Source: Streptomyces afghaniensis 772 (GTDB lineage: Bacteria > Actinomycetota > Actinomycetes > Streptomycetales > Streptomycetaceae). From it: a stretch of DNA of 42,046 bases. The notes beneath the pieces were generated by a model. The model saw only the letters and a program-made list of their open reading frames with translations. It ran no database searches and was not told where the DNA came from. The stretch covers positions 1 to 42,046 of the forward strand of contig KE354450.1 of NCBI GenBank assembly GCA_000415505.1, read 5' to 3'. The position numbers and the translations under genes were made by a program. Position 1 is the stretch's first letter; every line of letters begins with the position of its first letter. This document shows positions 7,144 through 37,549 of the stretch, one piece after another.

Positions 7144-7224
7144 TGTTGAACGGCACTGAAGAGTTCAGTTGCGCACGAAACAGTTCAGCGGTCAGTTCAG
7201 TAGCGCGGTGAACTGTTCAGTGCC
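7144..7224. mobile_element. Putative left terminal inverted repeat and transposase-binding repeats
   Basis: The end begins TGTTGAACGG at 7144. It matches, without gaps, 18 of 26 bases of the inward-reading right end that starts at 37549. The motif AGTTCAGT (or one mismatch) recurs at 7162, 7182, 7194 and 7214. In addition GGCACTGAAgAGTTC (7152-7166) forms a one-mismatch inverted repeat with 7210-7224. TGT termini plus subterminal repeats are typical of Tn7/Tn5053/Mu-type elements, and broken tniQ/tniB genes lie at the other end. The four bases outside (GCCG, 7140-7143) also occur immediately outside the right end. Confidence 0.6.
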
Positions 7225-7417
7225 ATACCTGGCATCGTGGTGTGGCTGAAGGTCCCAACGTCCCGCCACGTGTCCGAGTCAGCTGTCCCCGGCCAGCAGC
7301 GCTGCAGCGCACCCCAGATCCGGCATGCGGCCCGAGGAGCAGTGGCGAATGGCCTCACACCACGCACATCCTGTTTCTCCCTGCGGTGCACCGCGCCGAC
7401 CACAGTCCCCAGCGGTG

Positions 7418-7767
7418 TGCAGCAGTGGCTGCTCGGCGAGGTGCTGGGCATCGAGCCTCTTCCGGAGCGACCGCCCGTCCCCGCGGTCTCTCCGCGGCGC
7501 AGCCGGGCGCAGAAATGGGAGGCGAACTTGGCGGCGTCCCGCCAGTACCGCACCCGGGAGGGGCATCTGAACGTACCTCGATCGCACATCGAAACTGTTG
7601 ACGGGGCGGAGCTGGCCCTCGGTGTGTTCATCGCCAACGCCCGTACTCGCAAAGCGAGTCTTGCTCCCGAACGAGTGGAGGAGCTGTCCGCTGTTGGTAT
7701 GCGCTGGCAGCGAGTCGGGGAAAGGGGTCAGCTGGGCCGTGGTGGGCGTCGGCCTCGCACACGGTGA
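7418..7767 (+). pseudogene. Fragment of a helicase-associated (HA) domain protein
   Basis: The frame reads QQWLLGEVLGIEPLPERP, then one complete helicase-associated repeat from WEANLAASRQYRTREGHLNVP through VDGAELALGVFIANARTRKASL to LSAVGMRW. This repeat (Pfam HA) is found in tandem in large Streptomyces helicases of chromosome arms and mobile regions. Here only one unit remains, with no helicase motifs up- or downstream, and unrelated residues lie on both sides. I therefore call it a remnant; a short expressed protein is not excluded, since the frame is open from 7237 to 7767. Confidence 0.6.
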
Positions 7768-8160
7768 ACGGACGGGCCTGAGTCAGCGGGGAGTCAGCCC
7801 GGGCCGTGGCAGTGCACGCGCGGCGGGTGCACATGGGCCGCTTGGGGAACTGTGGCCGCTGTCAAGCGAGTTCACGCGTCTACGGCCGTAGCCGCCTGCA
7901 TGCGGGCCGGCCCAGTTCCGCCGTGCCGCCCCGCGACGACGCGTTCACCTCGGGGCACTGGCCCCTCCAGCCCGCTGCCCTCCACCCAGCCTGGTGTCGA
8001 TCCAAGCGGTTCTCCTGACTGCGCCGGATACCCCTGAGCGGGCAGACCAGGCCGGTTCGACATCCGTTAATCCGGCTTGAGAGCTCCACTCCGACAACTG
8101 CCGGGCTGGAGTCGGGGAACGGGCCGCGGACAGCCGCCGAGCCTCCTATCAGCTGCCGAC
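7768..8160. other. Gene-free stretch
   Basis: About 390 bp in which no frame gives a protein I recognise. The short open frames on both strands are rich in Arg/Pro/Ala, as expected from non-coding GC-rich DNA. It is probably the decayed continuation of the helicase-associated remnant plus the upstream leader of the MFS gene. Confidence 0.5.
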
Positions 8161-8191
8161 GCCACGTGCCATATGTCACTTGGAATTAACT

Positions 8192-8225
8192 TGGCACTTG
8201 ACTGCCACATGGCACTTGATGCCAT
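8192..8225. promoter_or_regulatory. Tandem palindromic operator upstream of MFS exporter
   Basis: Two related palindromes lie side by side. TGGCA-cttgac-TGCCA is at 8192-8207 and ATGGCA-cttga-TGCCAT at 8209-8225. A further half-like CACGTGCCATATG lies just upstream at 8163. They end 47 bp before the GTG of the exporter, the usual place for a repressor site. The TetR encoded directly after the exporter (10060-10695) is the likely ligand-controlled binder; this is inference. Confidence 0.6.
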
Positions 8226-8272
8226 AACGTGGGTTCATCCGATCGAACCGTGAGTTCAGGAGAACCCTCACC

Positions 8273-9871
8273 GTGAGCAAGTCCACCGTTGCCGAAGCTC
8301 CCGCCCAGAAGCCGGTCCCAGCAGCCCTGGGCATCCGCCGACTGCGTGGCCATCCGTGGCTGTCGTTGCTGGCCGTCGCGCTCGGCGTGATGCTCGTCGC
8401 GCTGGACGGGACGATCGTCGCCATCGCCAGCCCGGCCATCCAGAAGGACCTGGACGCCTCACTCTCCGACATCCAGTGGGTGACCAACGCCTACCTGCTG
8501 GCCCTCGCGGTCAGCCTGATCACCGTCGGCAAGCTCGGCGACCGCTTCGGGCACACGAAGATCTTCCTGATAGGTGCGGTCGGCTTCGTCGCCTCCTCCG
8601 CCGGCATCGGCCTGACCGACGACATCAAGGTCATGATCGGCCTGCGCGTGGTGCAGGGCTTGTTCGGCGCGATGCTCCAGCCGACCGCGCTCGGCATCAT
8701 CCGCTCCACGTTCCCGGCCGAGAAGCTGAACTCCGCGATCGGCATCTGGGGCGCGGTGGTCGCCGCGTCCACCGCGGCCGGCCCGATCGTCGGCGGTCTG
8801 CTGGTCGAGCACGTGAACTGGGAGTCCTGCTTCTACATCAACGTGCCCGTCGGCATCGTCGCCGTCGTCATGGGTCTGCTGTTCCTGAAGGACACCGAGC
8901 GCGACCAGAACTCCAACCCCTTCGACGTCCCCGGGATCGTACTGCTGTCCGGCACCCTGTTCCTGCTGGTGTGGGCCCTGATCAAGGCCCCCGACTACGG
9001 CTGGGGCGACACCAGGACCCTTGGCTTCCTCGGCGCCACCCTGGTCGTGGGCCTGCTGTTCGTGCTGCGTGAGCGCCGCACGAAGGAGCCGCTTCTGCCG
9101 CTGCGACTGTTCCGCTCCCTGCCCCTGTCGGCGGGCGTTGTACTGATGCTGATGCTGTCGTTCTGTCTGTTCGGGGCCATGTTCTACATGACCTTCTACC
9201 TGCAGAACGTGCACGGCATGAGCGCCGTCGACGCCGCCGTGCGGATGCTTCCCCTCACGGGCCTGATGGTTGTCGGCGCACCGCTGGCCGGCGCGCTCAT
9301 CAATCGGTTCGGTCCGCGGCCGCCGATGGTCGCCGGCATGCTCCTGACGGCCGGAGCCCTGTTCGGTCTCGCCGGCCTCGACACCGGTTCGGGCGCCAAC
9401 GACACCCTGGTGTGGTTCGGCATGCTGGGCCTCGGCCTGGCCCCGATCATGGTCGGCGCCACCGAGGTCATCGTCGGCAACGCCGAGGTCGAGCTGGCCG
9501 GTGTGGCCGGCGGTCTGCAGTCCACCGCCATGCAGGTCGGCGGTACCCTCGGCACCGCGGTCCTGGGCGCGGTGATGACGGCCAAGCTCAACGACGTCTT
9601 CGCCGAACGCTGGTCGGCCGCCCACCTGCCGCCCCTCAGCGGCGAGCAGCTCGCCCAGGCCAAGGAGGCGGTCTCCGTCGGCGTCGCCCCGGTCGCCGCC
9701 AAGACCCCGGCGCCCGTCGCCGAGGTCATCACGAACATCACGCACAGCGCCTTCATGGACGGCATGCATCTCGCGTTCGTCGTCGCCGGCGTCGTCGCCC
9801 TCGTGGGCGCCGCGATCGGTCTGCTGACCAAGCAGGGCCGCAAGGTCGAAGGCGCCGCCGTGCACATCTGA
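8273..9871 (+). CDS. MFS drug/metabolite exporter, DHA2 (EmrB/QacA) 14-TM type
   Basis: 532 aa, GTG start at 8273 with CAGGAGAAC upstream. TM1 carries the DHA2 signature LDGTIVAIASPAI. Next come WVTNAYLLALAVSL and motif A GKLGDRFGHTK, and then many hydrophobic segments, giving a length and pattern that fit 14 helices. Such proteins use the proton gradient to expel hydrophobic drugs or metabolites across the membrane. It is followed by a TetR gene in the same direction and preceded by palindromic operators, a classic self-regulated efflux unit. Within this element it may export a toxic substrate or product of the neighbouring P450 pathway. Confidence 0.92.
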   Translation: MSKSTVAEAPAQKPVPAALGIRRLRGHPWLSLLAVALGVMLVALDGTIVAIASPAIQKDLDASLSDIQWVTNAYLLALAVSLITVGKLGDRFGHTKIFLIGAVGFVASSAGIGLTDDIKVMIGLRVVQGLFGAMLQPTALGIIRSTFPAEKLNSAIGIWGAVVAASTAAGPIVGGLLVEHVNWESCFYINVPVGIVAVVMGLLFLKDTERDQNSNPFDVPGIVLLSGTLFLLVWALIKAPDYGWGDTRTLGFLGATLVVGLLFVLRERRTKEPLLPLRLFRSLPLSAGVVLMLMLSFCLFGAMFYMTFYLQNVHGMSAVDAAVRMLPLTGLMVVGAPLAGALINRFGPRPPMVAGMLLTAGALFGLAGLDTGSGANDTLVWFGMLGLGLAPIMVGATEVIVGNAEVELAGVAGGLQSTAMQVGGTLGTAVLGAVMTAKLNDVFAERWSAAHLPPLSGEQLAQAKEAVSVGVAPVAAKTPAPVAEVITNITHSAFMDGMHLAFVVAGVVALVGAAIGLLTKQGRKVEGAAVHI

Positions 9872-11511: not shown

Positions 11512-11550
11512 GTGTCATACGGTGACACCGATTTCGAGTCACAGTGTGAC
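11512..11550. promoter_or_regulatory. Palindromic operators in the TetR/P450-operon divergent promoter
   Basis: GTGTCA-tacgg-TGACAC at 11512-11528 is a perfect 6-bp-arm palindrome. A second, overlapping in sequence style, is GTCAC-agt-GTGAC at 11538-11550, again followed by ACACG. The shared half-site GTGTCA/TGACAC and the position between divergent TetR and operon fit a TetR operator. Start of the operon's first gene is 76 bp downstream. Confidence 0.65.
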
Positions 11551-11625
11551 ACGAAATGGACGGCCGTACGGCATGGCCCGTCGGCCGCTTCTCTCCCCTC
11601 CCGGCACGCAAGGAAGCGGGCTCCC

Positions 11626-12921
11626 ATGACTGCTCTCGTCGATCGACAGAAGATCCTCGCGGCGGCCGGTTCCGACAAGGAACTGGCCTACAAGCTGCGC
11701 ACCTACTCCGGCCGCGTCCGGTTCGATCTGCCCGAGGGGGCGTTCGACCTGGTGGTCGAGGACGGTGTCCCCGCCGGGGCCGAGGAGGTGCACGCGGACC
11801 TCGCCGCCGATGTGACCTTCTCCGCGCCGGCCGAGTTCTGGTCGACCGCGTTCTCCGCTGCTGTCCCCCCGGCCGGCTACGAGAGCTGCGTCGTCGGCAT
11901 GACCCGCGGTCTGAGGATCGTCGGCGACTTCGGCGGCACCGTCGCCCCCTGGCAGAGCGGCTGGGCCCGCCTGTACCAGGTGGTGCGCGAGACGGTGGCC
12001 GGCGCGCCGGTCCGCAAGCCCTTCCAGGACCCCTTCCGCGAGACGGACAACGCCGTCGGACGGTACGTCTACGTCTCCGCGAACGGCCAGGAGGCACGGA
12101 TTTACTACGAGACCTCCGGCCACGGCCCGATCCCGCTGCTGCTGCAGGCGACCGCAGGCGCCGACGGCCGCCAATACCGCCACCTGCTGGCCGACCCGCG
12201 GATGCAGGAACGCTTCACGATGTACGCCTACGACCTGCCCTACCACGGCAAGTCGCTGCCTCCGATCGGGGTGCGCTGGTGGGAGGAGACCTACCGCCCC
12301 GGCCGCGACGGCCTGATCAACTGGGTGGTCGCGATCGCCGACACCCTGGGCCTGGACAACCCGTACTTCATGGGCTGCTCGGTCGGCGGCCAGCTCGCCC
12401 TCGACCTCGCGGCCGAACGCGGCGACCGCTTCGGCGCGTTCATCTCCCTCAACGGCTGGTACGGCAACCCGCCGCTGTTCGACGGCTTCTCCAACGACAT
12501 GTTCCGTACCCCGTCGATCGCCGACAGCTACGCCCCCGCGCTCAACTTCGGTGCGACCGCGCCCCAGGCACCCGAGCCGAACGCGCACGAGACGTACTGG
12601 ATCTACCGCTCGGCGTTCCCCGGCATCTACGCGGGCGACAACGACTACTTCGCCTACGAGCACGACCTCAAGGAGAACGGGCACAAGATCGACGCTCACG
12701 CGAAGCCCGTCTACGTCGTCACCGGCGAGTACGACCCGGCCAGCGACGACGACGTCAACGGCGGCCCGGCCGTGGAGAAGTTCATCCCCGGCGCCAAGTT
12801 CATCAAGGTCGCCGGGCTCGGGCACTTCGCCCCCTGCGACGACCCCATCGGGTTCGGCGACGCCATCGTCCCGATCCTCGACGAGGTCATCGCCAAAGCT
12901 GCCTCCGCCGGCCAGTCCTGA
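11626..12921 (+). CDS. Alpha/beta hydrolase with N-terminal SCP2-like domain
   Basis: 431 aa, ATG at 11626 with AAGGAAGCGG upstream. Residues about 1-125 (ELAYKLRTYSGRVRFDLPEG...VVGMTRGLRIVGDFG) look like an SCP2 sterol-carrier-type lipid-binding domain. Residues about 145-430 form an alpha/beta hydrolase with the nucleophile elbow GCSVGG (S252), an acid candidate in VVTGEYDPAS and a catalytic His in GLGHFAP. The arrangement suggests a hydrolase that binds a hydrophobic ester, lactone or ring-cleavage product. It is the first gene of the P450 operon, 31 bp before the P450. The SCP2 call is from overall pattern only. Confidence 0.82.
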   Translation: MTALVDRQKILAAAGSDKELAYKLRTYSGRVRFDLPEGAFDLVVEDGVPAGAEEVHADLAADVTFSAPAEFWSTAFSAAVPPAGYESCVVGMTRGLRIVGDFGGTVAPWQSGWARLYQVVRETVAGAPVRKPFQDPFRETDNAVGRYVYVSANGQEARIYYETSGHGPIPLLLQATAGADGRQYRHLLADPRMQERFTMYAYDLPYHGKSLPPIGVRWWEETYRPGRDGLINWVVAIADTLGLDNPYFMGCSVGGQLALDLAAERGDRFGAFISLNGWYGNPPLFDGFSNDMFRTPSIADSYAPALNFGATAPQAPEPNAHETYWIYRSAFPGIYAGDNDYFAYEHDLKENGHKIDAHAKPVYVVTGEYDPASDDDVNGGPAVEKFIPGAKFIKVAGLGHFAPCDDPIGFGDAIVPILDEVIAKAASAGQS

Positions 12922-14220: not shown

Positions 14221-14544
14221 ATGCCCAAGGTCACTTATGTGTCCGACGCCGGTGAGGTCCGCGTCGTCGACGGCCTGGTCGGCGACTCGGTGATGCAGAC
14301 TGCAGTCCGCAACGGCGTCCCCGGCATCACCGGCGAATGCGGCGGCGTCCTGTCCTGCGCCACCTGTCACGTCTTCGTGGACGAAGCCGACCTGGATCGG
14401 CTGGAACCGGTCAGTGGCCTGGAGGACGAGATGCTCGACGGCACGGTCGTCGACCGCTGCCCCAACTCCCGGCTGTCCTGCCAGATCAAGCTCTCCGAAG
14501 AGCTCGGCGATCTGCGCGTGACCACCCCGGAAGCCCAGGAGTAG
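14221..14544 (+). CDS. [2Fe-2S] ferredoxin, putidaredoxin/adrenodoxin type
   Basis: 107 aa. The cluster ligands are C40, C46, C49 and C87 (GECGGVLSCATC and RLSCQI), the C-x5-C-x2-C...C pattern of P450-dedicated vertebrate-type ferredoxins. C80 is an additional cysteine. The ATG follows the P450 stop by only 5 bases, and the ribosome binding site GGAGGTG lies in the end of the P450 gene. Function: shuttles electrons from the reductase at 14551 to the P450. Confidence 0.95.
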   Translation: MPKVTYVSDAGEVRVVDGLVGDSVMQTAVRNGVPGITGECGGVLSCATCHVFVDEADLDRLEPVSGLEDEMLDGTVVDRCPNSRLSCQIKLSEELGDLRVTTPEAQE

Positions 14545-14550: not shown

Positions 14551-15843
14551 GTGAACAGCACCGCCGTCGCCCCGCGCGACACCGGCGTGCTCGTGGTGGG
14601 CGCCTGTCAGGCCGGCATCCAGCTGGCCTGTTCCCTCCGCGAGTACGGCTACACGGCCCCGATCACCGTGGTCGGCGCCGAACGGCACGCGCCCTACCAG
14701 CGTCCACCGCTCTCCAAGACCCTCCTGCACGCGGAGACGTCGCCCGACGCGATCGCACTGCGATCGGAGGCGTTCTACGCCGACCACGGCATCCGGCTGG
14801 TGCTCGGGGAACGCATCATCCGGGTCGACCGGGGCGACGGCGGTGCGGGGGTCGCGTACGCGCACTCCGGCCGTAGCTTCGCGTTCGACCGGCTCGCGCT
14901 CACCGTGGGCGCCCGCCCGCGCCGCCTGCCCGTCCCCGGCGCCGATCTGGCCGGCGTCCACTACCTCCGGGACGCCGACGACGCGCTCGCCCTGCGTGCG
15001 GCCCTGGCAGAGGCGGTCGACGTCCTGGTCATCGGCGGTGGCTTCATCGGACTCGAAGTCGCGGCCAGTGCCCGGGGGCTCGGCTGCGAGGTCACCGTCG
15101 CCCTCGCCGACAACCGACTGCTCGAACGTGCCGTAGGGGTCCCGACCAGCGAGTTCTTCCTCGACGCCCACATCCGGCGCGGGGTGCGGGTGCACCTCGG
15201 AGCGCCGCCCGTACGCCTCCTGGACGACGGTCACGGGCGCGTCCGTGGCGCCGAACTCCCCGACGGCAGCGTGCTGACGGCCGATCTGGTGGTCGTCGGG
15301 ATCGGCGCCGTGCCCCGCACCGAACTCGCCGAGCAGCTCGGACTGACCGTCGACAACGGCATCGTCGTCAACGAGTACGGCCTCGCCTCCGACGGCACCA
15401 CGGTCGCCGCGGGCGACTGCGTCGCCTGCCCCCCGCCGGTGGACCTCCCCGACGGCCCGGCCCGGATCCGCTTCGAGTCGGTGAACACCGCCGTCGAACA
15501 GGCGAAGACCGCCGCCGCCCTGCTCGCCGACAGGCCGGTCCCCTACTGGGCCGTGCCCTGGTTCTGGTCCGACCAGTACGACCTCAAACTCCAGGTCGCC
15601 GGCCTGTCGACCGGCCATGACCGGTACGTCGTACGCGGTGAGCCGGACACGGAGAAGTTCGCCGTCCTCTACTACCGCGGCGGACGTCTGGTCGCCGGTG
15701 ACTTCGTCAACCGGCCGGCCGACTTCCTCGCCGTACGCTCCGCCTTGGCCGTGGGCCGGACCATCCCGCCCGAAGCGGCCACTGACACCACGGTGCCGTT
15801 GAAGAAGCTCATCGCCGACGATCCCCGGCAGGCAGTGGCATGA
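14551..15843 (+). CDS. FAD-dependent NAD(P)H:ferredoxin reductase (putidaredoxin reductase-like)
   Basis: 430 aa, GTG start 6 bases after the ferredoxin stop. The FAD-binding motif reads VVGACQAGIQLA, with Cys where GxGxxG usually has its middle Gly. The NAD(P) motif VIGGGFIGLEVAASA is intact, and TVAAGDC near the C-terminal part binds the FAD. PYQRPPLSK is typical of the rhodocoxin/putidaredoxin reductase group. It supplies electrons to the ferredoxin. The stop overlaps the next start (ATGA at 15840-15843). Confidence 0.94.
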   Translation: MNSTAVAPRDTGVLVVGACQAGIQLACSLREYGYTAPITVVGAERHAPYQRPPLSKTLLHAETSPDAIALRSEAFYADHGIRLVLGERIIRVDRGDGGAGVAYAHSGRSFAFDRLALTVGARPRRLPVPGADLAGVHYLRDADDALALRAALAEAVDVLVIGGGFIGLEVAASARGLGCEVTVALADNRLLERAVGVPTSEFFLDAHIRRGVRVHLGAPPVRLLDDGHGRVRGAELPDGSVLTADLVVVGIGAVPRTELAEQLGLTVDNGIVVNEYGLASDGTTVAAGDCVACPPPVDLPDGPARIRFESVNTAVEQAKTAAALLADRPVPYWAVPWFWSDQYDLKLQVAGLSTGHDRYVVRGEPDTEKFAVLYYRGGRLVAGDFVNRPADFLAVRSALAVGRTIPPEAATDTTVPLKKLIADDPRQAVA

Positions 15844-16361
15844 CCGCCGGCCCGACCGCCCTGCCCGGACTGCGGTGGAGCGTCAAAGTCCCGTTCCTGC
15901 GCTATATCGCCCGCTCTCCAGAGGGCCGCTGCTCGGTCACCGACGGCGCCTCGGTCGTCGACGAGCACATGTTCCTCTTCAGCCCGGACGATGCGTCGGC
16001 ATTCGACGCCGGTACGGTCACCGGCCTGCTGAAGTTCCGGGGAGACGTACGCTTCGCCGCCCACTACGGGCTGCTCTTCCTCCGCATCGCCGACCCCTGG
16101 CTGTCCGTCACCGGCGGCGCGGGAACCCTGACCATCGCGGCACCGCCCGGCCAGTCACCCGAGCGCATCCCCCTGACCACCCTCCACCTGCGGACCGCCG
16201 ATCCGCCGGACCACGCCGACTTTTGCCTCGGCACGCACGTCCGGCTGACTGCTGAGGGATCCGAACTCTTCAACGGGGTCTACCCCGTGGACGAACCGTT
16301 CGACGACCTGACCCTCCTCCTCACTCCGTCCTCCACAACCGCCCTGGAGAAGACACCATGA
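15840..16361 (+). CDS. HtaA-type haem-binding domain protein, cytoplasmic
   Basis: 173 aa, essentially one HtaA domain. Readable features are LRWSVKVPFLRYI at the start, FRGDVRFAAHYG in the middle, and LTAEGSELFNGVYP near the end. Y22, H75 and Y148 fall at the positions and spacing of the Tyr-His-Tyr residues known to matter for haem binding in corynebacterial HtaA. Those relatives are secreted or membrane-anchored, but here no signal peptide or membrane helix is present. It overlaps the reductase (ATGA) and the toroid gene (ATGA at 16358-16361), so it is tightly coupled to the P450 system. A haem-supply role for the P450, or binding of another planar ligand, is inference. Confidence 0.72.
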   Translation: MTAGPTALPGLRWSVKVPFLRYIARSPEGRCSVTDGASVVDEHMFLFSPDDASAFDAGTVTGLLKFRGDVRFAAHYGLLFLRIADPWLSVTGGAGTLTIAAPPGQSPERIPLTTLHLRTADPPDHADFCLGTHVRLTAEGSELFNGVYPVDEPFDDLTLLLTPSSTTALEKTP

Positions 16362-17434: not shown

Positions 17435-17486
17435 CGCATTGATGCGCACGGCCGAAGACGGACGTGCGTCGGCAAAGGAACCAGGA

Positions 17487-18506: not shown

Positions 18507-18515
18507 ACCCTCCCG

Positions 18516-20720: not shown

Positions 20721-20742
20721 ACGCACATGAAAGGAATCACAG

Positions 20743-26975: not shown

Positions 26976-27075
26976 CCTGCCGGCCTGGGATTCGCCGAAC
27001 CAGCTTCCTGGGCCAACCGGACAGCGAGGCGAACTCGCGCCCTGACCTGCCCCTGCGGGCATGTGACTTGCTGAT

Positions 27076-27357
27076 CGGTGGGCCGACCGGGAAACGACAT
27101 CGACGGCTTCCGCCGCAGCCACCTGGGCCTCACCCAGCGCATGCTCACTCCTGCACGCCGATGCCGAGACCCGCCAGACCCTGGACACCTACCTCCGTGA
27201 GCAATGCAGCACCACGCGCACCGCCGAGCGGCTCTTCACTCACCGCAACACCGTGCTGCGCCGCCTGACCCCCGCCGACGACCTGCTGCCCCGCCCCCTT
27301 GCCGACAACGTCACCGCCGTCGCCGCCGCCCCCGAAGTGATCCGCTGGCGCGGTTGA
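27076..27357 (+). pseudogene. C-terminal remnant of a PucR/CdaR-family regulator
   Basis: GRPGNDIDGFRRSH belongs to the region before the output domain. Then, after a frame change, comes TRQTLDTYLREQCSTTRTAE and RLFTHRNTVLRRL, which is the PucR C-terminal helix-turn-helix (THRNTVxYRL). It ends at the TGA at 27355. No N-terminal part is present here; an N-terminal fragment of the same family lies at 35500-35996 on the other strand. Confidence 0.6.
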
Positions 27358-27399
27358 CCGGGTGCGTCGTCGGCGAGGGTCGGGAAAGCATCGGCGTGC

Positions 27400-27912: not shown

Positions 27913-28061
27913 GTCACCTTGCCTCATTGCCTGGGTGGGTCTGTGGGTGCGAACGTACGGTCCGACCTGCGGCGGGGGCTTGACTGAGGCCGCACGGTTA
28001 CTTGAACCTGAGCGCACCCACGACCGGGTCCCCGGAAGGTGCGCAGTGAGGTGGCACCGGT

Positions 28062-29018
28062 ATGACGCTCGACTTCTCCACGGCGCCACTCGAAGGCCGA
28101 GCTCGGCTCGACTACTGGCGTGAGGTGGTCTGCACGACGTTCGTCCAGTACGAGATGGACGTGCCGCAGCCCACGTCCGCCGGGTTCCGGGGCAGGGTCA
28201 CGGCCCAGACGCTCGGAGACCTGGGCGTCGCGAGGGTGGTCTCCGACCCCCACACGGTGTTCCGGTCCCCGACGCTGATCCGGAGATCGGGCGAGGACGA
28301 CCTCCTGGTCAACCTGGCCGTCCAGGGCTGTGTGACGGTCTCCCAGCAGGAGCGGGACGCGGTCTTGCGCCCAGGCGACTTCACCGTCTACGACAGTGCC
28401 CGGCCCTGCCGTATCGTCTGCGCCGACCCGTTCGAACTGCTGGTGCTGAAGGTGCCCAGGCCGCTGTTCGACGCGCACTGCCCGCTGGCGCGGGACGCGA
28501 TGGCGACCACGGTGCCGGGCGACCACGGGGTGGGCGCGCTCTTCGCGCCCTTCTTCCACTCTCTGACCGCCCACTCCGCCGGTCTGTCTCCCGACGCGAG
28601 GGCACGGATCGGCGCCACGCTGCTGGAGCTGCTGGCCACAGCTCTGTCCGAGCGAACCGATTCAGGCGCCCGGCTCGGCGTCCCCAGAGCAGCCCATATG
28701 GACCGCGCCCGCCGGTACATCATCGACCACATCGCCGACCCCGACCTGTCGCCCGCCATGGTCGCCCGGGCGCTGGGAATCTCCGTCCGCTACCTGCACG
28801 CGATCTTCAGAGCCGAGGACACCTCACCGTCTCGCTGGATCCTGCAACAGCGGATCGACAGGGCCGCCGGGCTGCTCGCCGACCCGGGCCGGGCGGGCCG
28901 CAGTGTCACGGACATCGCCTACGCCGTCGGCTTCAAGGACGCCTCGCACTTCACCCGCGCCTTCAAGGACCGCCACGGGTTCAACCCGCGCGAGTACCGC
29001 AGAAGGCTCGCGGGCTGA
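28062..29018 (+). CDS. AraC family transcriptional regulator (AraC_binding_2 type)
   Basis: 318 aa. The N-terminal cupin-like sensor is of the AraC-binding-like group (LDYWREVVCTTFVQYEM, LRPGDFTVYDSARPCRI). The C-terminal double helix-turn-helix is SPAMVARALGISVRYLHAIF and SVTDIAYAVGFKDASHFTRAF, ending in FNPREYRRR. ATG at 28062. The 149 bp shared with the cupin gene probably hold its binding sites, though I see no clear repeat there. Confidence 0.9.
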   Translation: MTLDFSTAPLEGRARLDYWREVVCTTFVQYEMDVPQPTSAGFRGRVTAQTLGDLGVARVVSDPHTVFRSPTLIRRSGEDDLLVNLAVQGCVTVSQQERDAVLRPGDFTVYDSARPCRIVCADPFELLVLKVPRPLFDAHCPLARDAMATTVPGDHGVGALFAPFFHSLTAHSAGLSPDARARIGATLLELLATALSERTDSGARLGVPRAAHMDRARRYIIDHIADPDLSPAMVARALGISVRYLHAIFRAEDTSPSRWILQQRIDRAAGLLADPGRAGRSVTDIAYAVGFKDASHFTRAFKDRHGFNPREYRRRLAG

Positions 29019-29210
29019 GCCAGGTGGGAACGATCGCCGGCCGGCGCTTGCACGGTCGGATGACAGGGTCTACCCGGGTCGCCGTCCTCTTGCGCGGCCC
29101 TCGCATTCCGTAGCGGCGCGTGGAAGGACGAGTTCGCCCCTGCTGAGTCGTCGACCTTCCTCGCGAAGGGCCGCAAACCGGGTGGATGGACGAGTCACGG
29201 CATCCCGGTG

Positions 29211-29728
29211 TCACAGACCCGGTCGGGTCCGAATTTCAACGGCGACCCCGGTGATGGCCTGGTCGATCCCGGCTGTAAGTTCCGGAGCCAGCAGCGCGGA
29301 GCCGACCATCCCGTCGGTGAACCCCTGGGGCCGGTCTGGGCGGCCACGGTGCGCCGGTGGGTGAACTCGTCGAAGCCGGCCTTGCCGCCGTAGGCGCCTG
29401 TGCCGGAGCCTCCCACTCCGCCGAACGGGGCGTTGCTGAGGGAGGCGTGCAGGAGGCCGTCGTTGCGGGTGACACCGCCGGAGGTGGTGTGCTGCAGGAA
29501 GCGGCGGAAGTCGTCGCCGTCCTCGCCGTACCAATACGCCGCCAGAGCGGCCGGACGGTCGTTGATGAACGCGATCGCCTCGGCCAGATCGTCGTAGGGG
29601 TGGATGGTCAGCACCGGTCCGAAGATCTCCTCGCGGGTGATCTCCGCGTCGTCGGGGACGTCGATCAGCAGCGTCGGCGGGATCAGGCGCGCCTCGCGGG
29701 CTGCGTCCCACAAATCCTCGTCCGCCCC
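29211..29728 (-). pseudogene. C-terminal remnant of a coniferyl-aldehyde dehydrogenase-like enzyme
   Basis: Minus-strand frame reads RLIPPTLLIDVPDDAEITRE and then EIFGPVLTIHPYDDLAEAIA and SGGVTRNDGLLHASLSNAPF GGVGGSG, the C-terminal third of class 3/coniferyl-type aldehyde dehydrogenases. After a frame change near 29310 it ends as GSALLAPELTAGIDQAITG to 29211. The NAD-binding part and the catalytic Cys are absent. The upstream border near 29728 is abrupt. Confidence 0.62.
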
Positions 29729-29932
29729 CAATAGGGGGCAAGCTTGCGCCGCCCCCTCGGCACGTCAAAGGGCACAGCTCGGCCTGGCCCCGAGCGATCA
29801 CCTGTCGGACACACCCCGCGCACTCGAACCGTCGGCCGTTCTTCGCCCGGTGCGGCGCTGAAGTAGGGCGTGGCTCAGAACCCAGCGGAGACGTGACGGG
29901 TTCGTTGCCGTCGGTTTGCTTTACAGCCCCGC

Positions 29933-29970
29933 AATGTTGGATTAACTTCCAACATTGGAAGCAGTTCCAA
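29933..29970. promoter_or_regulatory. Operator array of four TTGGAA/TTCCAA half-sites
   Basis: AATGTTGGA-ttaact-TCCAACATT (29933-29956) is a perfect 9-bp-arm palindrome. It is followed by TTGGAA-gcag-TTCCAA (29955-29970), which shares its last half-site. It ends 43 bp before the ATG at 30014. The TetR gene that closes this cassette (32790) is the likely binder. The AT-rich core stands out from its GC-rich surroundings. Confidence 0.68.
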
Positions 29971-30013
29971 GTATCCGCGAGCCCAACGACGCGAGCGGTG
30001 TTACGGAGGTCCG

Positions 30014-30937
30014 ATGACCGACCGATTGAATGTGACGTTTCCTTCGGGGCCGGACGAGTGTCACGCCTGGCTGTACCTGCCCGAGGGCGGGGGTCGGCGC
30101 CCCGTGGTGGTCATGGCACACGGTCTCGGTGGGGTCCGCGAGATGCGGCTGGACGCCTACGCCGAGCGTTTCGCCGCCGCCGGCTACGCGTGCCTGGTGT
30201 TCGACTACCGGCACTTCGGGGCCAGCGGCGGTCAGCCGCGACAGCTCCTGAGCATCAGACGACAGCTCCAGGACTGGCGGGCCGCCGTGGCGTACGCGCG
30301 CTCCCGGCCGGAGACCGATCCCCGGCGCGTGGTGCTGTGGGGCACCTCTTTCGGCGGCGGCCATGTCCTGGCGACAGCCGCCCAGGACTCGGCCGCCGCC
30401 GTCATCGCCCAGGGCCTGTTCACCGATGGTGTCGCCTCTGCCCTGGCGATGCGCCCGGACACCTCGGTGAAGGTGATGGCCCGCGCGGTCCGTGACGTGG
30501 TCGGCGCCCGCCTTGGGCGCCCTCCCGTCATGGTCGCGACGGCGGGGCCGCCCGGATCCGCCGCGTTGATGACCGCTGCGGACGCCGAGCCCGGCTACCT
30601 GGCCCTCGTGCCCAACGACGCGCTCTTCTCCAACCAGGTTGCGGCGCGGTTCGCCCTGGACATCCTCCGCTACCGGCCGGGCCGCCGGACCGCGAAGATC
30701 GCATGCCCGGTGCTGTTCTGCGTATGCGAGCACGACAGCGTGGCCCCCGCGCGGCCGACCCTGCGCCATGCCCGCAGGGCCCCGCGCGGCGAGATCCGCC
30801 TCTACCCCGACGGCCACTTCGACATCTACCTCGGCGAGCCCTTCGAACGCGTTGTCACGGACCAGCTCGCCTTCCTGGCGCGGCACGTCCCCATCGGCTC
30901 CGCACCCGGTGAAGCCCCGGGACCCACGACACCCTGA
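30014..30937 (+). CDS. Alpha/beta hydrolase
   Basis: 307 aa. VVVMAHGLGGVREMRLDAYA carries the oxyanion HGLGG, WGTSFGGGH the nucleophile elbow, CEHDSVAP the acid and PDGHFDIY the His. The general form (uncharacterised hydrolase with DYRHFGASGG) resembles peptidase-S15/dienelactone hydrolase relatives acting on small esters. First gene of a four-gene cassette with two SDRs and a TetR, 12 bp before the first SDR. Confidence 0.88.
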   Translation: MTDRLNVTFPSGPDECHAWLYLPEGGGRRPVVVMAHGLGGVREMRLDAYAERFAAAGYACLVFDYRHFGASGGQPRQLLSIRRQLQDWRAAVAYARSRPETDPRRVVLWGTSFGGGHVLATAAQDSAAAVIAQGLFTDGVASALAMRPDTSVKVMARAVRDVVGARLGRPPVMVATAGPPGSAALMTAADAEPGYLALVPNDALFSNQVAARFALDILRYRPGRRTAKIACPVLFCVCEHDSVAPARPTLRHARRAPRGEIRLYPDGHFDIYLGEPFERVVTDQLAFLARHVPIGSAPGEAPGPTTP

Positions 30938-30949
30938 AAGAGGTACGAG

Positions 30950-31834
30950 ATGCTCACCTACCCGATTGCGGGGAAGACCGTCTTCATCACCGGCGCAACC
31001 GGAGGCATCGGTGCGGCCACCGCCCGCACGCTGCACTCGCGCGGAGCCAACGTGGTCCTCGCCGACCGGGGCATCGACGCCACATCGGCCCTCGCCCGCG
31101 ACCTCGGCGGCGACAGGACACTGGCGCTGTCGGTGGATGTCACCGACAGCGCCGCACTGGCCGACGCGGTGGACCGTACGGTCGACCGGTTCGGCGGCCT
31201 GGATGTCGTCTTCGCCAACGCGGGGATCGCGGCCGATCCGCCGGCGACGATCGCCACCATCGACCCGGCCATGTTCGAGCGCGTCGTCGAAGTGGACCTG
31301 CTGGGCGTCTGGCGCACCGTTCGCGCCGCACTGCCGCACGTCATCGCGGCGCGCGGGCACGTCCTGGTCACCGCTTCGGTGTACGCCTACTTCAACGGTA
31401 TGACCAACGCCCCCTACGCCATGTCGAAGGCCGGCGTCGAGCAGTTCGGCCGCGCCCTGCGCGCCGAACTCGGCATCCACGGCGCCAGCGCCGGGGTCCT
31501 CTACCCCGGCTGGGTCCACACGCCCATCGCTGGAGCAGCCTTCGGAAGCAACGACATCACCACCCGCATGCGCGAGATCGCCTTCCCGTCCCTGCTCGGC
31601 AAGGCCATCGCCCCCACGCCCGTCGCGGACGCCGTCGTCCGCGGCATCGAGAACCGCTCGGCCCGTGTCATGGTCCCCCGCAGGTGGGTACCGTTTTCGG
31701 CCCTGCGCGGCGTCCTTAACCCCGTCACCGATCTCATCGCCGAACGCCACCCCGAACTGCGACGACTCCTGCGCCGACTCGAAGAATCCGTCGGCCCCAC
31801 AGGCAAGTCCCCGCAGACCGACTCACCGAGGTAG
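30950..31834 (+). CDS. SDR family oxidoreductase
   Basis: 294 aa, ATG at 30950 after GAAAGAGG. TGATGGIGAA, the NAG segment FANAGIA, and catalytic YAMSK (Tyr/Lys) with the preceding Ser in TASVYAY. The acidic end of strand two (LADRGID) suggests NAD(H). A C-terminal extension of about 40 residues (FSALRGVLNPVTDLIAERHP) is shared in style with the next gene, so the two are probably tandem paralogues. Confidence 0.9.
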   Translation: MLTYPIAGKTVFITGATGGIGAATARTLHSRGANVVLADRGIDATSALARDLGGDRTLALSVDVTDSAALADAVDRTVDRFGGLDVVFANAGIAADPPATIATIDPAMFERVVEVDLLGVWRTVRAALPHVIAARGHVLVTASVYAYFNGMTNAPYAMSKAGVEQFGRALRAELGIHGASAGVLYPGWVHTPIAGAAFGSNDITTRMREIAFPSLLGKAIAPTPVADAVVRGIENRSARVMVPRRWVPFSALRGVLNPVTDLIAERHPELRRLLRRLEESVGPTGKSPQTDSPR

Positions 31835-31840
31835 GCCGTC

Positions 31841-32776
31841 ATGACCCGTTACGACCTGGCCGGGCGCACCGTCGTCCTCACTGGCTCCACCGGCGGCCTG
31901 GGCGCCGCCCTCGCCCGGGCCCTGCGCGGGCGCGGCGCCAACCTCGCGCTGCTCGACCTCAGCCTCGCGGCCACCACGGCCCAAGCCCAGGACCTGGGAG
32001 ACGAAACGGTCGCCCGTGGCTGGCACGCCGACGTACGCGACCTCGCCGGCCTGCAGCAAGCCATGGACGAGGCCGCCTCGCACTTCGGGCGCCTCGACAT
32101 CGTCATCGCAGGCGCCGGGATCGACACCATGGCCCCGATGGCGACCATCGACCCGTCGGCCTACGAACGTGTCATCGACGTCAACCTCAACGGGGTCTGG
32201 CGCACCTTCCGTGCGGCTCTGCCCCACGTCGAGGCCCAACGCGGCTATCTCCTCGCGATCTCCTCCATGGCCGCCTTCGTGCACTCGCCGCTCCAGATCT
32301 CCTACACCGCGAGCAAGGCCGGCGTGTGGGCGATGTGCGACAGCCTTCGCCTGGAGGTTCGCCACCTGGGTGTCGGTGTCGGCAGCGCCCACCCCACGTT
32401 CTTCCGCACTCCGATGATGGACGACGTGACCGCGGACCCGGCCGGGCACGCCCTCTGGGGCGGCAACTCCAAGGGGTTGTGGAAGATGGTGCCGCTGGAG
32501 AAGGTCATCGCCGGTATCGTCCGCGGCATCGAGCGCCGTGCGGACCGCGTCGTCGTCCCCAGGTCCCTCACCCTGACCGCGAACGCTCCCGGTCTGTTCC
32601 GGCCGATACTCGAACGTGTCGGTTTCCGCCCTCAGACGGTCCAGCGCGCCCACGGCCTCGCCTCGGCGTCGGGCTGGCACGACCCGGCGGTGCATGAGCG
32701 CCACCAGGCGGTTCCCGCTGAAATTCCGGGCGGAAGGAAGCGGCCCAGGGGGTCCGGCCGTTCGAGCACCTCGTAG
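31841..32776 (+). CDS. SDR family oxidoreductase
   Basis: 311 aa, starting 6 bp after the previous stop. TGSTGGLGAA, AGAGIDTMAP, and catalytic Ser and YTASK are present. LLDLSLA after strand two again points to NAD. It resembles the upstream SDR in order and C-terminal extension (ANAPGLFRPILERVGF). The last 20 residues are basic and low in complexity. TetR gene follows 13 bp later. Confidence 0.9.
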   Translation: MTRYDLAGRTVVLTGSTGGLGAALARALRGRGANLALLDLSLAATTAQAQDLGDETVARGWHADVRDLAGLQQAMDEAASHFGRLDIVIAGAGIDTMAPMATIDPSAYERVIDVNLNGVWRTFRAALPHVEAQRGYLLAISSMAAFVHSPLQISYTASKAGVWAMCDSLRLEVRHLGVGVGSAHPTFFRTPMMDDVTADPAGHALWGGNSKGLWKMVPLEKVIAGIVRGIERRADRVVVPRSLTLTANAPGLFRPILERVGFRPQTVQRAHGLASASGWHDPAVHERHQAVPAEIPGGRKRPRGSGRSSTS

Positions 32777-32789
32777 AGTAGCGGGGACC

Positions 32790-33404
32790 ATGACGATGAA
32801 GGTCACACGCACGACACGTCGGGCCGCCGCAACCCGTGCGGCCATCGTCGACGCCGCCGAGAAGCTGCTGGCCTCCGGAGGCCCCGACGCGGTCACCTTG
32901 GAAGGCATCGCCGAACGCGCGGATGTCGCCGTGCAGACGGTGTACAACCGCGTGGGCGGCCGCGCGGCCGTTCTCATCGCGGTTGCCGAGCGGGCACTCG
33001 AGGACAACCGGACCTACATGGACGACGCCTACGCTGCCCCGGGCACCCCCGTGGAACGCATCAGGGCCGCCTCGGCCGCGTACGTCCGCTTCGCCGCCGA
33101 GCGCCCACACCAGTTCCGCCTGCTGGCCGAGCCGCCGGACGAACCCGCGGCCCTGGAACGGGTCGCCGCGCTCGTCGACGAGCAGAACGCCAAACTCGCC
33201 GCCGCCCTGGCCGACGGGGTGGCCGACGGCTCGCTCGCCGCCGACCTCGATCCCGTCACCACCGCCACCGCGTTGTGGGCTGCCATGAACGGCGTTCTCG
33301 GCCTCTCCTGGCGCGCGGACCGACTCCGCGCTGACGCCTCCCACTTGACGGAACTCGTCGCAGCTGTGGAAAGGGTGGTTCTCCGCGGGCTGCTCGCCCG
33401 CTGA
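32790..33404 (+). CDS. TetR family regulator of the hydrolase-SDR cassette
   Basis: 204 aa, ATG at 32790. Helix-turn-helix region: AAIVDAAEKLLASGGPDAVT then LEGIAERADVAVQTVYNRVG. C-terminal domain resembles TetR_C_33-type ligand pockets (AAYVRFAAERPHQFRLLAEP). Last gene of the cassette and probably autoregulatory through the half-site array at 29933-29970. Confidence 0.9.
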   Translation: MTMKVTRTTRRAAATRAAIVDAAEKLLASGGPDAVTLEGIAERADVAVQTVYNRVGGRAAVLIAVAERALEDNRTYMDDAYAAPGTPVERIRAASAAYVRFAAERPHQFRLLAEPPDEPAALERVAALVDEQNAKLAAALADGVADGSLAADLDPVTTATALWAAMNGVLGLSWRADRLRADASHLTELVAAVERVVLRGLLAR

Positions 33405-34510: not shown

Positions 34511-35263
34511 CGTCCGCGGTTCGGTGGCGGTCGGCTCGCCGGCGTGGTCCGCTTGATCCCCCGGCTTCGGCAGATGCGGGAAGCCCGTGGTGAACGCCGC
34601 ATGGTCCGCCCGGCAGCGGTTTCCGCATTCCTGCGTGTCCCGTGCGTAATGGGTCCCTGTAGGGAGACCTGTAGGCTTCTTGTTCTCGCCTCCGCGCCGC
34701 AATCTGACGCCGCAGGCAGGGCATATGTCGACGAGAAGGCACCGATGGACGGGACATACGGCTGCGATGCCCAGGCGCCACCACACCGGCCATACCCCAC
34801 TCCCTGAAAGGCAATGTGGGCAGGCACGACTTTGGTAGGCCAGGAACCACTGGTGGCGAGTCAGACGAGGCAGGGTTGTTACGTCGTTTACGTCAAGACG
34901 CGAAAAATTGAGGGCAGTTCCGTCATATCGAGCAAGCTGCATCTGTCGCAGTGTTTTGGTGGTCAGCCCAGTCGTCAGCTGCAGGCCAGCCAGGCTGGCC
35001 GGTGCAAGGGTGACGCCGAAGAACAGCGGTCGCCTCATTTTCCCTGCCGAGCTGAATTCAAGTCCCAGTGCCCGGGCTGCGATACCCGGCGGCACGTCCA
35101 ATTTGATCGCAGCGCGATCCACCCAGGAGTGGAACGCCTCGCCTTCCACAGGGGCGGGCACAACGGGAAGGCGGCGGAGCCGCGTCGCGTGAGCTGACAG
35201 CTGGGGGTGGTCGGCGCCCCGCCGTCGGGCAGCGGTGGGTCCCGCCAAGTGCGCGTTGCTCAT
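34511..35263 (-). pseudogene. tniQ: tniQ, N-terminal piece
   Basis: From the ATG at 35263 the minus strand reads RLRRLPVVPAPVEGEAFHSW, then LDVPPGIAARALGLE, LPRLTRHQWFLAYQSRACPH and the zinc-binding CPHC...CPVH...CPACGVRLRRG. This is the TniQ/TnsD N-terminal domain, which directs target choice in Tn7/Tn5053-type transposition. After CGNRCRA (about 34630) the frame runs into unrelated DNA and then the antisense of the esterase remnant. The missing second half is found on the plus strand at about 36232-37451. It is fused in frame to the tniB-like tail upstream. Confidence 0.75.
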
Positions 35264-35272
35264 GTTTAACTT

Positions 35273-35500
35273 GCCGCCACCTTCGATCCTACTGCGGCTT
35301 TCTGGCGGCGCTGCTGTACGACTCTCCGGGTACGTGGCCTGGGCGTATTCGCTAATCTCGATGCGGTCCATGAGCTTGCGTGTGACCGCTTCCTCCCCGC
35401 TCATGACGGCTTCGATTGCGGATTCACGGAACAGATCGGTGAGGGCACAGATGCTGCCATCGGTGCGGTCGTAGAAGTAGGAACACAGCTCGGCCTCGTT
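35273..35500 (-). pseudogene. C-terminal tail of a TniB-like AAA ATPase
   Basis: AELCSYFYDRTDGSICALTD followed by LFRESAIEAVMSGEEAVTRK resembles the lid region at the end of TniB/TnsC-type ATPases (LYDRTGG-x-IG-x-L-x-x-LIR-x-AAI). Walker motifs are absent: the sequence begins abruptly after a PucR fragment at about 35500. Its position directly before tniQ is the normal tniB-tniQ order. Confidence 0.6.
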
Positions 35501-35996
35501 CACCAGGGACAGCCGCCACTGCAGTCGCCGGTCCCGCTCCTCCTGGTACGCCGTGACGCCCTGCTCAGATGTGTGGTCGACGTATCCGCTTGTCGCCAGC
35601 AGCCAGCGCGACGCCGCACTGATCAGCTCCGCATTCTTCGTCAGTCGCGGCATTTCCGCGAGCAGTCTGTCGAGGACGATGCGCTGACCGAGCCCGGTAG
35701 GCCCGCAGCATCACACTGACGGGCGTACCGCGCCGGGCCAGCCGGCGTGCGCGTTCCATCTCCGCGGCCGGCGGTTCGATCTCGCTCGGCTCGATGCCGT
35801 ATTGCAGGCCCCGCAGCACGCCGACGACGTTTTCGGTGACGCCCTCGGAGGTCTTACGGGCGAGATCCGGGTCGTTCCACAGTTCGGGAACCTCATGCCG
35901 AAGGCACCGCACCACGTCGGCGATCAGCTCGTCCGCCTTCGGTCCGAGCTCGCCGGCGACCCGGGACACAAAGCTGGCGGCGGTGTACTCCACCAC
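35500..35996 (-). pseudogene. N-terminal remnant of a PucR-family regulator (RsbRD-like domain)
   Basis: From the GTG at 35996: VVEYTAASFVSRVAGELGPK, ADELIADVVRCLRHEVPELW, and LARRGTPVSVMLRAYR. After a frame change near 35692-35699 it reads LGQRIVLDRLLAEMPRLTKN and YVDHTSEQGVTAYQEERDRR. This is the N-terminal sensor region of PucR/CdaR-type regulators. It breaks off at about 35500 into the tniB-like tail, so the output domain is missing. Confidence 0.58.
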
Positions 35997-36231
35997 ACTG
36001 TCGACTCTACGCCGAGCGGGCGACCCGTGAGCGGTCCGGCGTGACGAGCTCCCGCGCGAGACGGCGCACGCCCCGGCCGTCAGCCGGACCGCGGCGTACG
36101 CCACCGCCGTCAAGGCCGGCACGGCGGCGGGCTGGGCCCGCACGGGCGAGCCGCTGTTACTCAGGTGGGCCACAGCGGCCGCGAAGCCGAACGCTTGCCA
36201 AGTCACCACAGAGCCGAACCCGGTGGCAGCG
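35997..36231. other. Short unassigned stretch at the proposed inversion junction
   Basis: About 235 bp between the PucR start and the first tniQ-like residues on the plus strand. The minus strand has a moderately hydrophobic open frame (TGFGSVVTWQAFGFAAAVAH) that I cannot assign. Confidence 0.35.
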
Positions 36232-37451
36232 AGCCAGCCGGAAGCATGCCGCCAGCGGATCGCAGACATCCCCACTCTCTCGGTCCCACATGCGTTGGTT
36301 GATCTGCAAGTGCGCGCGCTCGCCATTGCCGACGGCGGTGCGGCCCGGCTGGCCGGCGAGCCTGTCTCCGGCGCCGAATGGTTCGATGCTCTGCGCTACC
36401 TGACGGCAGCTGCGCGACTGGTCGTCCACGATGACGAACTCGCGGAACTTCCCGGGTTCGCCGCGGACACATTCGCCGCCGTCCGCACACAGCGCGCACT
36501 CAGCCCTCGCGCAGTACCCGGTGGGGCCAGCGCGATGCCGGGCACCGCGTCCGAAGCTGCCGCCGCTCTCGCACTCGCGGAACCCATCCTGAACGCCTCC
36601 GACTGGGGTGCTGGCGCACGCCATCTTGCTCCTTGGGCGCGCAGGTTGGCCGCAGAACGGCAAACCAGGCACAGTGGCCGCAACCCGCTGCGCGGCATCC
36701 AGCACCCGGCGGGACTACATCGCATGATGACGGCGATCGTTCCCCACCAGAGACGAATCGCCGGCGCCGTTCCCACTGGATCATCCGTATCCTGGAGTTC
36801 CGGCATATTCCGAATCTGATAGACGCTGATGACTACCGCAACGTCATGGCCGTTCACCTTCCCGGAACCACACCTGTCATCGGCAGGCACTTCTGCTCCC
36901 TCGCTTTCGCTCGCCTGGCCGGGGCAGAGACTTGGGCCCAAGCCGAATACTCGCTAGACGCCCCACAGCGCCGCAAAGGAAATTGGGGAAAAACTACCCA
37001 GCGAATCCCTGGCTCTCAGGCTTTTTGGAGCGGAATTCGCACTTTGGCCGATCTATTGCGGAAACGAGGAGCCATTGACTACGCCGCTCGCCGGAGAGCG
37101 CTATCCGAACTTCTCGAGGTCCCTTATGACAGCCTGTTCTCGATCTTCCGTCCAGTACGGATGGGCGTTACTCGCCAGCGGCAACGCCACGCCGCAGCGT
37201 GGATCTGGCAAGCCCTCACCGGCAGCCCAGCCCACGACTCCCCTGTCTACGCCGGAGGCTGGGAGGGACAGAGCGCGGCCTCGGTGACCGAAGCCCGGCG
37301 GAAGTTCCACGATCGCGTTCCGGAATCTGCCGCCAGGGCGTTGACGCTGTGGGGGCTGGAATGGCTGGACGAGAAGGGCACTGGACCTCAGTCTGACTCG
37401 AGAGCCGCCGGTGCCGTGGGCGGCCCGGTGCGATCGTGGTCTGCGCACTGA
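36232..37451 (+). pseudogene. tniQ: tniQ, C-terminal piece, with one frameshift
   Basis: Reads CRQRIADIPTLSVPHALVDL, AGEPVSGAEWFDALRYLTAA and NPLRGIQHPAGLHRMMTAIV. After a frame change near 36770 it continues as EFRHIPNLIDADDYRNVMAV, HLPGTTPVIGRHFCSLAFAR, FSIFRPVRMGVTRQRQRHAA and ESAARALTLWGLEWLDEKG. These are, in order, the blocks of the long C-terminal half of actinobacterial TniQ proteins. The stop at 37451 lies inside the right terminal repeat. The N-terminal zinc-finger half is on the other strand at 34511-35263. Confidence 0.68.
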
Positions 37452-37549
37452 ACTGTTCCGCGCGAGGATTGCTACTTCCTTCTATGCAGAGAAGAGTTCA
37501 GTGCCCAGGTCAGGGCCACGGGGACTGAACTTTTTCCTTTCGTCCGACA
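37445..37549. mobile_element. Putative right terminal inverted repeat and transposase-binding repeats
   Basis: Read inward from 37549 the end starts TGTCGGACG, has AGTTCAGT at the same distance as the left end, and matches it at 18 of 26 positions without gaps. Further copies of the motif are ACTGAACT at 37447-37454 and AGTTCAGT at 37495-37502. GCACTGAACT (37445-37454) and AGTTCAGTGC (37495-37504) form a perfect inverted repeat. GCCG directly outside (37550-37553) equals the four bases outside the left end. The end lies inside the 3' part of the small membrane protein gene. Confidence 0.6.

Follow-up and report, generated by a model that had tools for sequence, protein, structure and literature searches.

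The window analysed here is the whole of contig KE354450.1 of Streptomyces afghaniensis 772, a stretch of 42,046 nucleotides. Between positions 7144 and 37549 it carries a 30,406-bp element that adjoins the end of a gene for a thiamine-pyrophosphate (TPP)-requiring enzyme and that holds a cytochrome P450 operon together with broken transposition genes. A first-pass annotation, made by a model from the letters alone, had proposed a TniQ-associated transposon with a P450 operon at these coordinates, and our comparisons support it. As one joint reading, we consider it very probable that the element is a decayed, non-autonomous Tn7-like transposon of Streptomyces that was homed by a TniQ protein to the end of the TPP enzyme gene. 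The common attachment site, the better-preserved relatives and the deleted and inverted state of the window copy go beyond the earlier account.

The borders were examined at the tips and in relatives that lack the element. The inward-reading tips, TGTTGAACGGCACTGAAGAGTTCAGT (7144, plus strand) and TGTCGGACGAAAGGAAAAAGTTCAGT (37549, minus strand), are equal at 18 of 26 positions and both carry AGTTCAGT at offset 19, the same count as in the first-pass annotation. When the left flank was used as a query in 61 genomes, an orthologous gene was found in many relatives, and at 7 of 29 relative loci (L002 to L008) the two flanks lie no more than about 100 bp apart. Window position 7141 is joined directly to 37549 in G009 (97% identical; locus L002) and 7135 directly to 37556 in G026 (94% identical; locus L003), which is the junction of about 7143 with about 37550 that had been predicted for element-free strains. 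These run-through sequences and closely spaced flanks mark the 30,406 bp as an insertion with the borders originally proposed; both the borders and the empty site are thus shown by comparison of sequences.

The search for the tips in other Streptomyces genomes, which had also been suggested, revealed a family of elements. A degenerate end pattern derived from the window tips, with one mismatch allowed, matched 14 of 392 Streptomyces genomes as against one for the reversed pattern used as a control, so that the resemblance of the two tips exceeds chance. An alternative pattern with two AGTTCAGT copies at the wrong spacing gave no match, missing the window itself too. Two kinds of tip could be distinguished, a left type (L, TGTTGAAC) and a right type (R, TGTCGGACG), and they occur together in eight of the matching genomes, the window counted. 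Six of these hold inward-facing pairs 17 to 44 kb apart, with element lengths of 30.4 kb in the window, 35.7 kb in G283, 44.1 kb in G216, 37.1 kb in G236, 17.3 kb in G406 and 17.2 kb in G143; in G389 the pair is split across the chromosome and in G073 the tips stand back to back. A scan of named genomes gave eight L ends in seven records, two of them being G406 and G216 again, and added paired elements in S. massasporeus (42.7 kb), S. stelliscabiei (10.5 kb) and Streptomyces sp. MA5143a (64.7 kb), for an overall size range of 10 to 65 kb.

Beyond the tips themselves, AGTTCAGT (with at most one mismatch) recurs at constant offsets in most of nine elements, namely at 19, 39, 51 and 71 on the L side and at 19, 48 (reverse) and 96 on the R side. 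The exceptions are L71 in G216 and G406, R48 in G406 and R96 in G433, where the repeat is missing. Its density in element interiors is only 0.03 to 0.08 per 150 bp, and the tip repeats may well be TnsB binding sites. Some loci hold extra tips. In G073 (L128/L215, contig position 7595649-7595656) the L and R tips lie 6 bp apart with no TPP gene adjoining, which points to elements in tandem or to a junction formed by rearrangement. G143 has a further R-like tip some 5 kb beyond its R end (L126, contig position 9022744), suggesting that part of another element survives at this site. MA5143a has an additional R tip within its 64.7-kb element, 7.4 kb from the L tip (L192, contig position 382128), and is itself composite, made up of two elements that have merged at this locus.

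Of 15 distinct L ends, each element being counted a single time, 12 adjoin the 3' end of the same TPP enzyme gene: eight of the nine found by the pattern search and four of the six further ones from the scan of named genomes, G106 being assigned from its sequence only. All copies at this site turn the same end towards the gene and occupy orthologous loci. The other flank is likewise orthologous to that of the window in all nine other paired elements (G389 included), with about 5.5 kb of DNA between the R tip and the orthologous flank in G143 and about 1.9 kb in G406. A short coding anchor in the gene, GAGTTCCTGCC (at most two mismatches), lies 26 to 29 bp from the element in 14 of 14 rows, which represent 12 distinct elements, all at the TPP site. 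In 25 element-free relatives, the native stop codon falls anywhere from 13 to 64 nt past this anchor. With the anchor spacing constant and the stop variable, the distance tracks the coding sequence and not the stop. The host stop precedes the tip in 9 of the 12 elements, and in the other three (G143, S. stelliscabiei and G106) a TGA inside the tip ends the frame. In the window, the open frame of the target gene begins at 4759 and the family match only at residue 195.

Such a spacing would be expected of a TnsD-like protein that binds inside the end of the gene, much as Tn7 homes to glmS via TnsD. While the shared attachment site is shown by sequence comparison, we infer that TniQ is its selector. 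In the mechanism that we propose, a TniQ protein would recognize the last coding segment of the TPP enzyme gene and the element, moving by cut and paste, would be inserted 26 to 29 bp downstream in a constant orientation relative to the gene, duplicating 5 bp of target. The reading frame of the host gene still ends properly, either at its own stop before the insertion or at a TGA from the first bases of the element. The window copy brought a class I P450 oxidation operon and, compared with its relative in MA5143a, lacks 8.4 kb and has an inversion that splits tniQ2.

Target duplications were sought at ten paired elements, the inner pair of MA5143a being excluded from the count. Exact 5-bp repeats flank five of them (G216, G143, G431, the outer pair of MA5143a, and G389, whose two halves are now apart), compared with 1 of 90 control pairings of flanks from different elements. 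G236 has a 7-bp repeat and the window a 4-bp repeat, both within low-complexity runs, and G433 has 4 bp; no flanking duplication was seen at G283 or G406 in this comparison.

Better-preserved relatives reveal the transposition genes. Near the R tip of G283 lie, in order, TniQ1 (635 aa), TnsA (255 aa), TnsB (724 aa), TnsC and TniQ2. The Pfam matches are TniQ (6.8e-21 and 8.1e-20), TniB (2e-13) and AAA_22 (4.2e-9) for TnsC, and, for TnsB, Mu-transpos_C (3.5e-5, over the cut-off) and rve (1.1e-3, below the cut-off). Residues D297, D401 and E437 of TnsB, which we take to be the DDE triad, are invariant in nine rows, and TnsA keeps PD...DVK in relatives. In PDB sequence searches TnsB was nearest to the TnsB of 7svw (1.8e-7) and TnsC to that of Vibrio cholerae Tn6677 (VchTnsC, 2.2e-4), and Tn7 TnsA provided the three best PDB fold matches to a TnsA model built from a 10-row alignment (E values of 6.2e-5 to 7.3e-4). 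The predicted structure of TniQ2, with a predicted local distance difference test (pLDDT) score of 55, was too low in quality and was left unused. All five frames are open in S. massasporeus and MA5143a; family members may be active today. Other relatives are damaged: tniQ2 of G283 is split over two frames, G236 is without parts of tniQ1 and tnsA, and tnsB of G389 contains a stop. Of the Tn7-like features, TnsB with a Mu-type C-terminal domain and TnsA beside tnsB are found in relatives and not in the window, TnsC is found in relatives and as a 3' remnant in the window, and TniQ occurs in the window and twice in G283. No cas match appeared among the Pfam-scanned window proteins and the selected open reading frames (ORFs) of four relatives, a scan that took in some of the ORFs and no search for CRISPR arrays.

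The comparison with MA5143a, in which this cargo recurs (window 10299-25904 at 98.8% identity and 27167-34614 at 98.7 to 99.4%), clarifies the state of the window copy. The tns module of MA5143a is 95.6% identical to that of G283, and window 7144-10298 is missing from MA5143a. Relative to MA5143a, 8,370 bp comprising tniQ1, tnsA, tnsB and most of tnsC are gone between 35490 and 35491, and the block 34611-36216 is inverted, which leaves tniQ2 in two opposite pieces (Table 1); this sequence comparison shows both the deletion and the inversion. The broken tniQ and the tniB/tnsC remnant announced near the right end by the first-pass annotation are both present. The minus-strand ORF at 35.5 to 36.1 kb was considered as a tniB-like gene and rejected, as the tnsC/TniB remnant is confined to the roughly 220 bp that end at 35490, and 35491-36216 belongs to the cargo side. 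In the inverted block, a fragment at 35565-36060 (minus strand) looks like the N-terminal portion of a regulator of the PucR type; the ORF there has no Pfam match. No close tnsB was found elsewhere in the genome of the window, the best match having 37% identity and weaker profile matches lying on three contigs, and the window copy is thus probably stranded unless helped in trans.

Table 1. Features of the window at the attachment site and within the element.
Feature	Position	Strand	Basis or remark
Target gene, TPP-requiring protein (PRK08273)	5341..7134	+	NF006129, 995.7 bits; TPP_enzyme domains
Coding anchor GAGTTCCTGCC	7105..7115	+	Insertion point 28 bp away in the window
Left (target-gene-proximal) end	7144..7221	+	TGT tip; AGTTCAGT-type repeats at 7162, 7182, 7194, 7214; border from empty sites
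ORF with helicase-associated (HA) domain, just inside the left end	7237..7767	+	PF03457, 2.7e-13
Major facilitator superfamily (MFS) efflux transporter	8273..9871	+	Nearest NCBIfam model TcmA-type, under that model's cut-off
Two TetR-type regulators	9937-10695; 10712-11413	+; -	Pfam
Alpha/beta hydrolase	11512..12921	+	PF00561, 3.7e-13; PDB search
Cytochrome P450	12953..14215 (ATG 12953)	+	PF00067, 3.9e-23; PDB search
[2Fe-2S] ferredoxin	14221..14544	+	Motif C-x5-C-x2-C...C, by eye
Ferredoxin reductase, putidaredoxin-reductase type	14551..15843	+	
HtaA-domain protein, AprG-like protein, two zinc alcohol dehydrogenases, metallo-hydrolase, aldo/keto reductase	15840..21723	+	
PEBP-like protein, two AraC-type regulators, three SDR dehydrogenases, phosphoesterase, cupin, hydrolase, truncated aldehyde dehydrogenase, TetR regulator	22026..33404		
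Inverted remnant, tnsC 3' end and tniQ2 5' part (tniQ from 35263 leftwards)	34611..35490	-	PF06527, 7.2e-19; reverse-order match to G283 and MA5143a
Cargo-side sequence in the same inversion	35491..36216	-	Comparison with MA5143a
tniQ2 middle and 3' part, two frames	36213..37451	+	Remnant
Right (target-distal) end	37447..37549	-	TGT tip; repeats 37524-37531, 37495-37502 (reverse), 37447-37454

The cargo of the window includes a complete class I P450 electron chain, and the operon probably encodes a pathway for the oxidation of an organic compound, as judged from its predicted proteins. The 358-aa protein at 16358-17434 (plus strand) in this operon has no Pfam match and is weakly AprG-like (9lfi/9c95, E value of 2.7e-8). 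The aldehyde dehydrogenase at 29195-29731 (minus strand) is a C-terminal part only (profile positions 346-461 of 461). Passenger genes differ between family members, as read from selected ORFs of the relatives (8 of 17 predicted in G236, 10 of 38 in G216, 8 of 36 in G283 and 2 of 14 in G406). G236 carries a three-gene pPIWI_RE defence set, a PD-(D/E)XK nuclease, a T5orf172/DUF4041 protein and a long helicase (L122-L121). Its long cargo ORFs were also considered as a nonribosomal peptide synthetase/polyketide synthase cluster, which was rejected, the scanned ORFs including the pPIWI_RE set and the helicase. G216 carries a molybdenum hydroxylase, aldehyde dehydrogenases and a luciferase-like monooxygenase, G283 an FAA hydrolase, a cyclase and an ornithine cyclodeaminase-like protein, and G406 an aldehyde dehydrogenase.

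With a P450-reductase probe (E values up to 1e-80), two of the 391 other Streptomyces genomes, namely G143 and G389, yielded copies of 98 to 99% identity, and all remaining matches reached at most 70%; the P450 cargo is also present in MA5143a and S. stelliscabiei. The element of G143 is shorter: it is collinear with that of the window as far as 22790 (with about 110 bp extra near 8008) and again from 36213 on. It is 99.2% identical to that of the window over 14.8 kb, whereas the adjacent target gene is 84 to 91% identical, and at the L tip identity changes from 99.2% in the first 120 bp inside to 82.5% in the 120 bp outside. An element of about 99% identity beside a gene of 84 to 91% indicates that the cargo moved between species, a transfer shown here by sequence comparison. 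S. stelliscabiei holds a second copy with P450 cargo (L188, 297 kb) that matches window 7143-19767 at 98.7 to 99.0%, with its L tip away from the TPP site and within what reads as an MFS gene. In G389, the L tip lies at 0.68 Mb (L130, 684 kb), the P450 cargo at 6.88 Mb (L213-L214) and the R tip at 7.45 Mb (L131), with orthologous flanks at each tip and matching 5-bp repeats. This arrangement is most simply read as the result of large chromosome rearrangements that involved the element, additional copies or an assembly error being possible alternatives.

Several points weigh against a TniQ-homed, Tn7-like element. Three of the 15 L ends lie elsewhere (G073, the second S. stelliscabiei copy and NRRL S-646), and the TPP site is also occupied in G236, whose TniQ is a different protein of 393 aa and whose tniQ1 and tnsA are damaged. 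The presumed recognition segment lacks unusual DNA conservation, with a third-position identity of 0.726 versus 0.690 and 151 of 532 windows higher. Half of the ten paired elements, the window included, are without an exact 5-bp duplication, and that of the window is only 4 bp (GCCG) within a GCC-rich run. The Pfam match of TnsA (PF08722, TnsA-like N, 1.1e-4) falls just under the curated cut-off, and the TnsA model has a pLDDT of only 64 and a TM score of about 0.27 to Tn7 TnsA.

Four other explanations were weighed against these data. The strongest of them, which we still judge improbable, is that the elements spread mainly by homologous recombination between conserved flanks after a few transpositions. 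Streptomyces recombine readily and both flanks are indeed conserved, but the exact insertion points differ, and at the left tip of G143 identity falls from 99.2% to 82.5%, which leaves no long shared tract in the flank. A transposon of the Tn5053/Tn402 type (TniABQ) has a smaller chance of being the right answer. It would account for the TniQ and TniB family matches, for the TGT tips with subterminal repeats and for the 5-bp duplications, which Tn5053 also makes. Tn5053 is, in turn, known for res-site hunting and a tniR resolvase, and TniABQ systems are without TnsA; here, a TnsA-type endonuclease lies between tniQ1 and tnsB in relatives and the target is a single chromosomal gene end with both flanks orthologous. 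The presence of TnsA thus makes the family Tn7-like rather than Tn5053-like, and of the class named by the first-pass annotation, Tn5053/Tn7-like, only the second half stands.

The equal orientation of all TPP-site copies at orthologous loci would also follow from one ancient insertion that was inherited vertically, which would make the shared site uninformative on targeting. We regard this as very unlikely, as close relatives are empty, the spacing varies by 1 to 3 bp, the duplications differ in sequence, the cargo differs, and the window and G143 elements are far more alike than their flanks, with identity falling abruptly at the tip. Integrases often use the 3' ends of genes, and a genomic island inserted by a tyrosine or serine integrase could explain the location. 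Such an island is hardly credible here, given that no integrase was found among the Pfam-scanned window ORFs (some small ORFs fell outside the scan) and that the ordered repeats at the TGT tips, the 5-bp duplications and the tnsABC genes of relatives all speak against it. A Tn7-like transposon homed by TniQ to the TPP gene end remains our preferred reading.

A sister lineage of Streptomyces elements (G105, G420, G208 and G315) has TnsB proteins 66 to 69% identical to that of G283. It shares the layout of long TniQ, TnsA, TnsB and TnsC and, in G105, G420 and G315, related tips with TTTCAGT repeats; a tip search found no sister-type tips in G208, G362 or G013. G105 (L196-L197) carries a 27.3-kb sister element with the 5-bp duplication GGTGC, and G420 (L194) and G315 (L200) carry single tips. 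Unlike the family described here, the tips of these three genomes lie within a gene reading ALNTGHEGG...TVHAN, which we take from its flanks to be a cpaF/tadA-type ATPase gene. Target choice thus differs between the two lineages, as expected if TniQ sets it. Plasmid matches of TnsB comprised 672 records, all below 60% identity.

Streptomyces exchange metabolic gene clusters, and to our knowledge few defined vehicles for this exchange have been described. The family constitutes such a vehicle: its borders are exact, an empty site and better-preserved members have been identified, and its preferred site leaves the target gene unharmed, so that the horizontal transfer of a P450 pathway can be followed to single-base resolution. 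The element looks like a targeted gene carrier. We marginally favour a still wider view, in which a Tn7-like superfamily of Streptomyces would use long TniQ proteins to home to coding landmarks such as the TPP gene end and, in the sister lineage, the cpaF/tadA-type gene, at a codon-measured distance and with stop rescue by the tip where required, and would serve as a general vehicle that carries complete oxidation pathways and defence islands from species to species, with a part in large chromosome rearrangements. The two sister lineages with different homes make target choice by TniQ testable, and the TPP site, like the TnsABC-TniQ sets, is a candidate tool for inserting large DNA in Streptomyces.

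Among known systems, Tn7 of Escherichia coli resembles the family in its TnsA, TnsB, TnsC and TniQ/TnsD-type proteins, its fixed orientation and distance from a gene end, its 5-bp duplication and its tip repeats. The family differs in having a TPP enzyme gene as its home, in its two long TniQ proteins and in the tip that supplies the host stop in 3 of 12 elements. Furthermore, the tns genes of the family are target-distal, whereas those of Tn7 lie at the glmS-proximal end. The Tn7-like transposons with dual TniQ-TnsD in the survey of Faure et al. (2023; 1,048 tandem loci; PMC10293859) similarly combine two TniQ/TnsD genes, the larger kind of which is thought to choose the site, with TnsABC. 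In the portion of that article available to us, the sites named are glmS, comM and tRNA genes, not a TPP gene, and Streptomyces occurs solely within a reagent name. Tn7706 of Rhodococcus erythropolis NI86/21 is also an actinobacterial Tn7-like element with tnsA, tnsB, tniQ and tniB (PMC12915292). By its description in the accessible part of that source, it differs in being 19.4 kb long and multicopy, on plasmids and several contigs and not at one chromosomal gene end. We found no report of a Streptomyces Tn7-like element at a TPP gene in the open-licence literature, survey supplements being outside its reach. Taken together, these comparisons place the anatomy of the element among known Tn7-like kinds, while its home and its host appear to be new.

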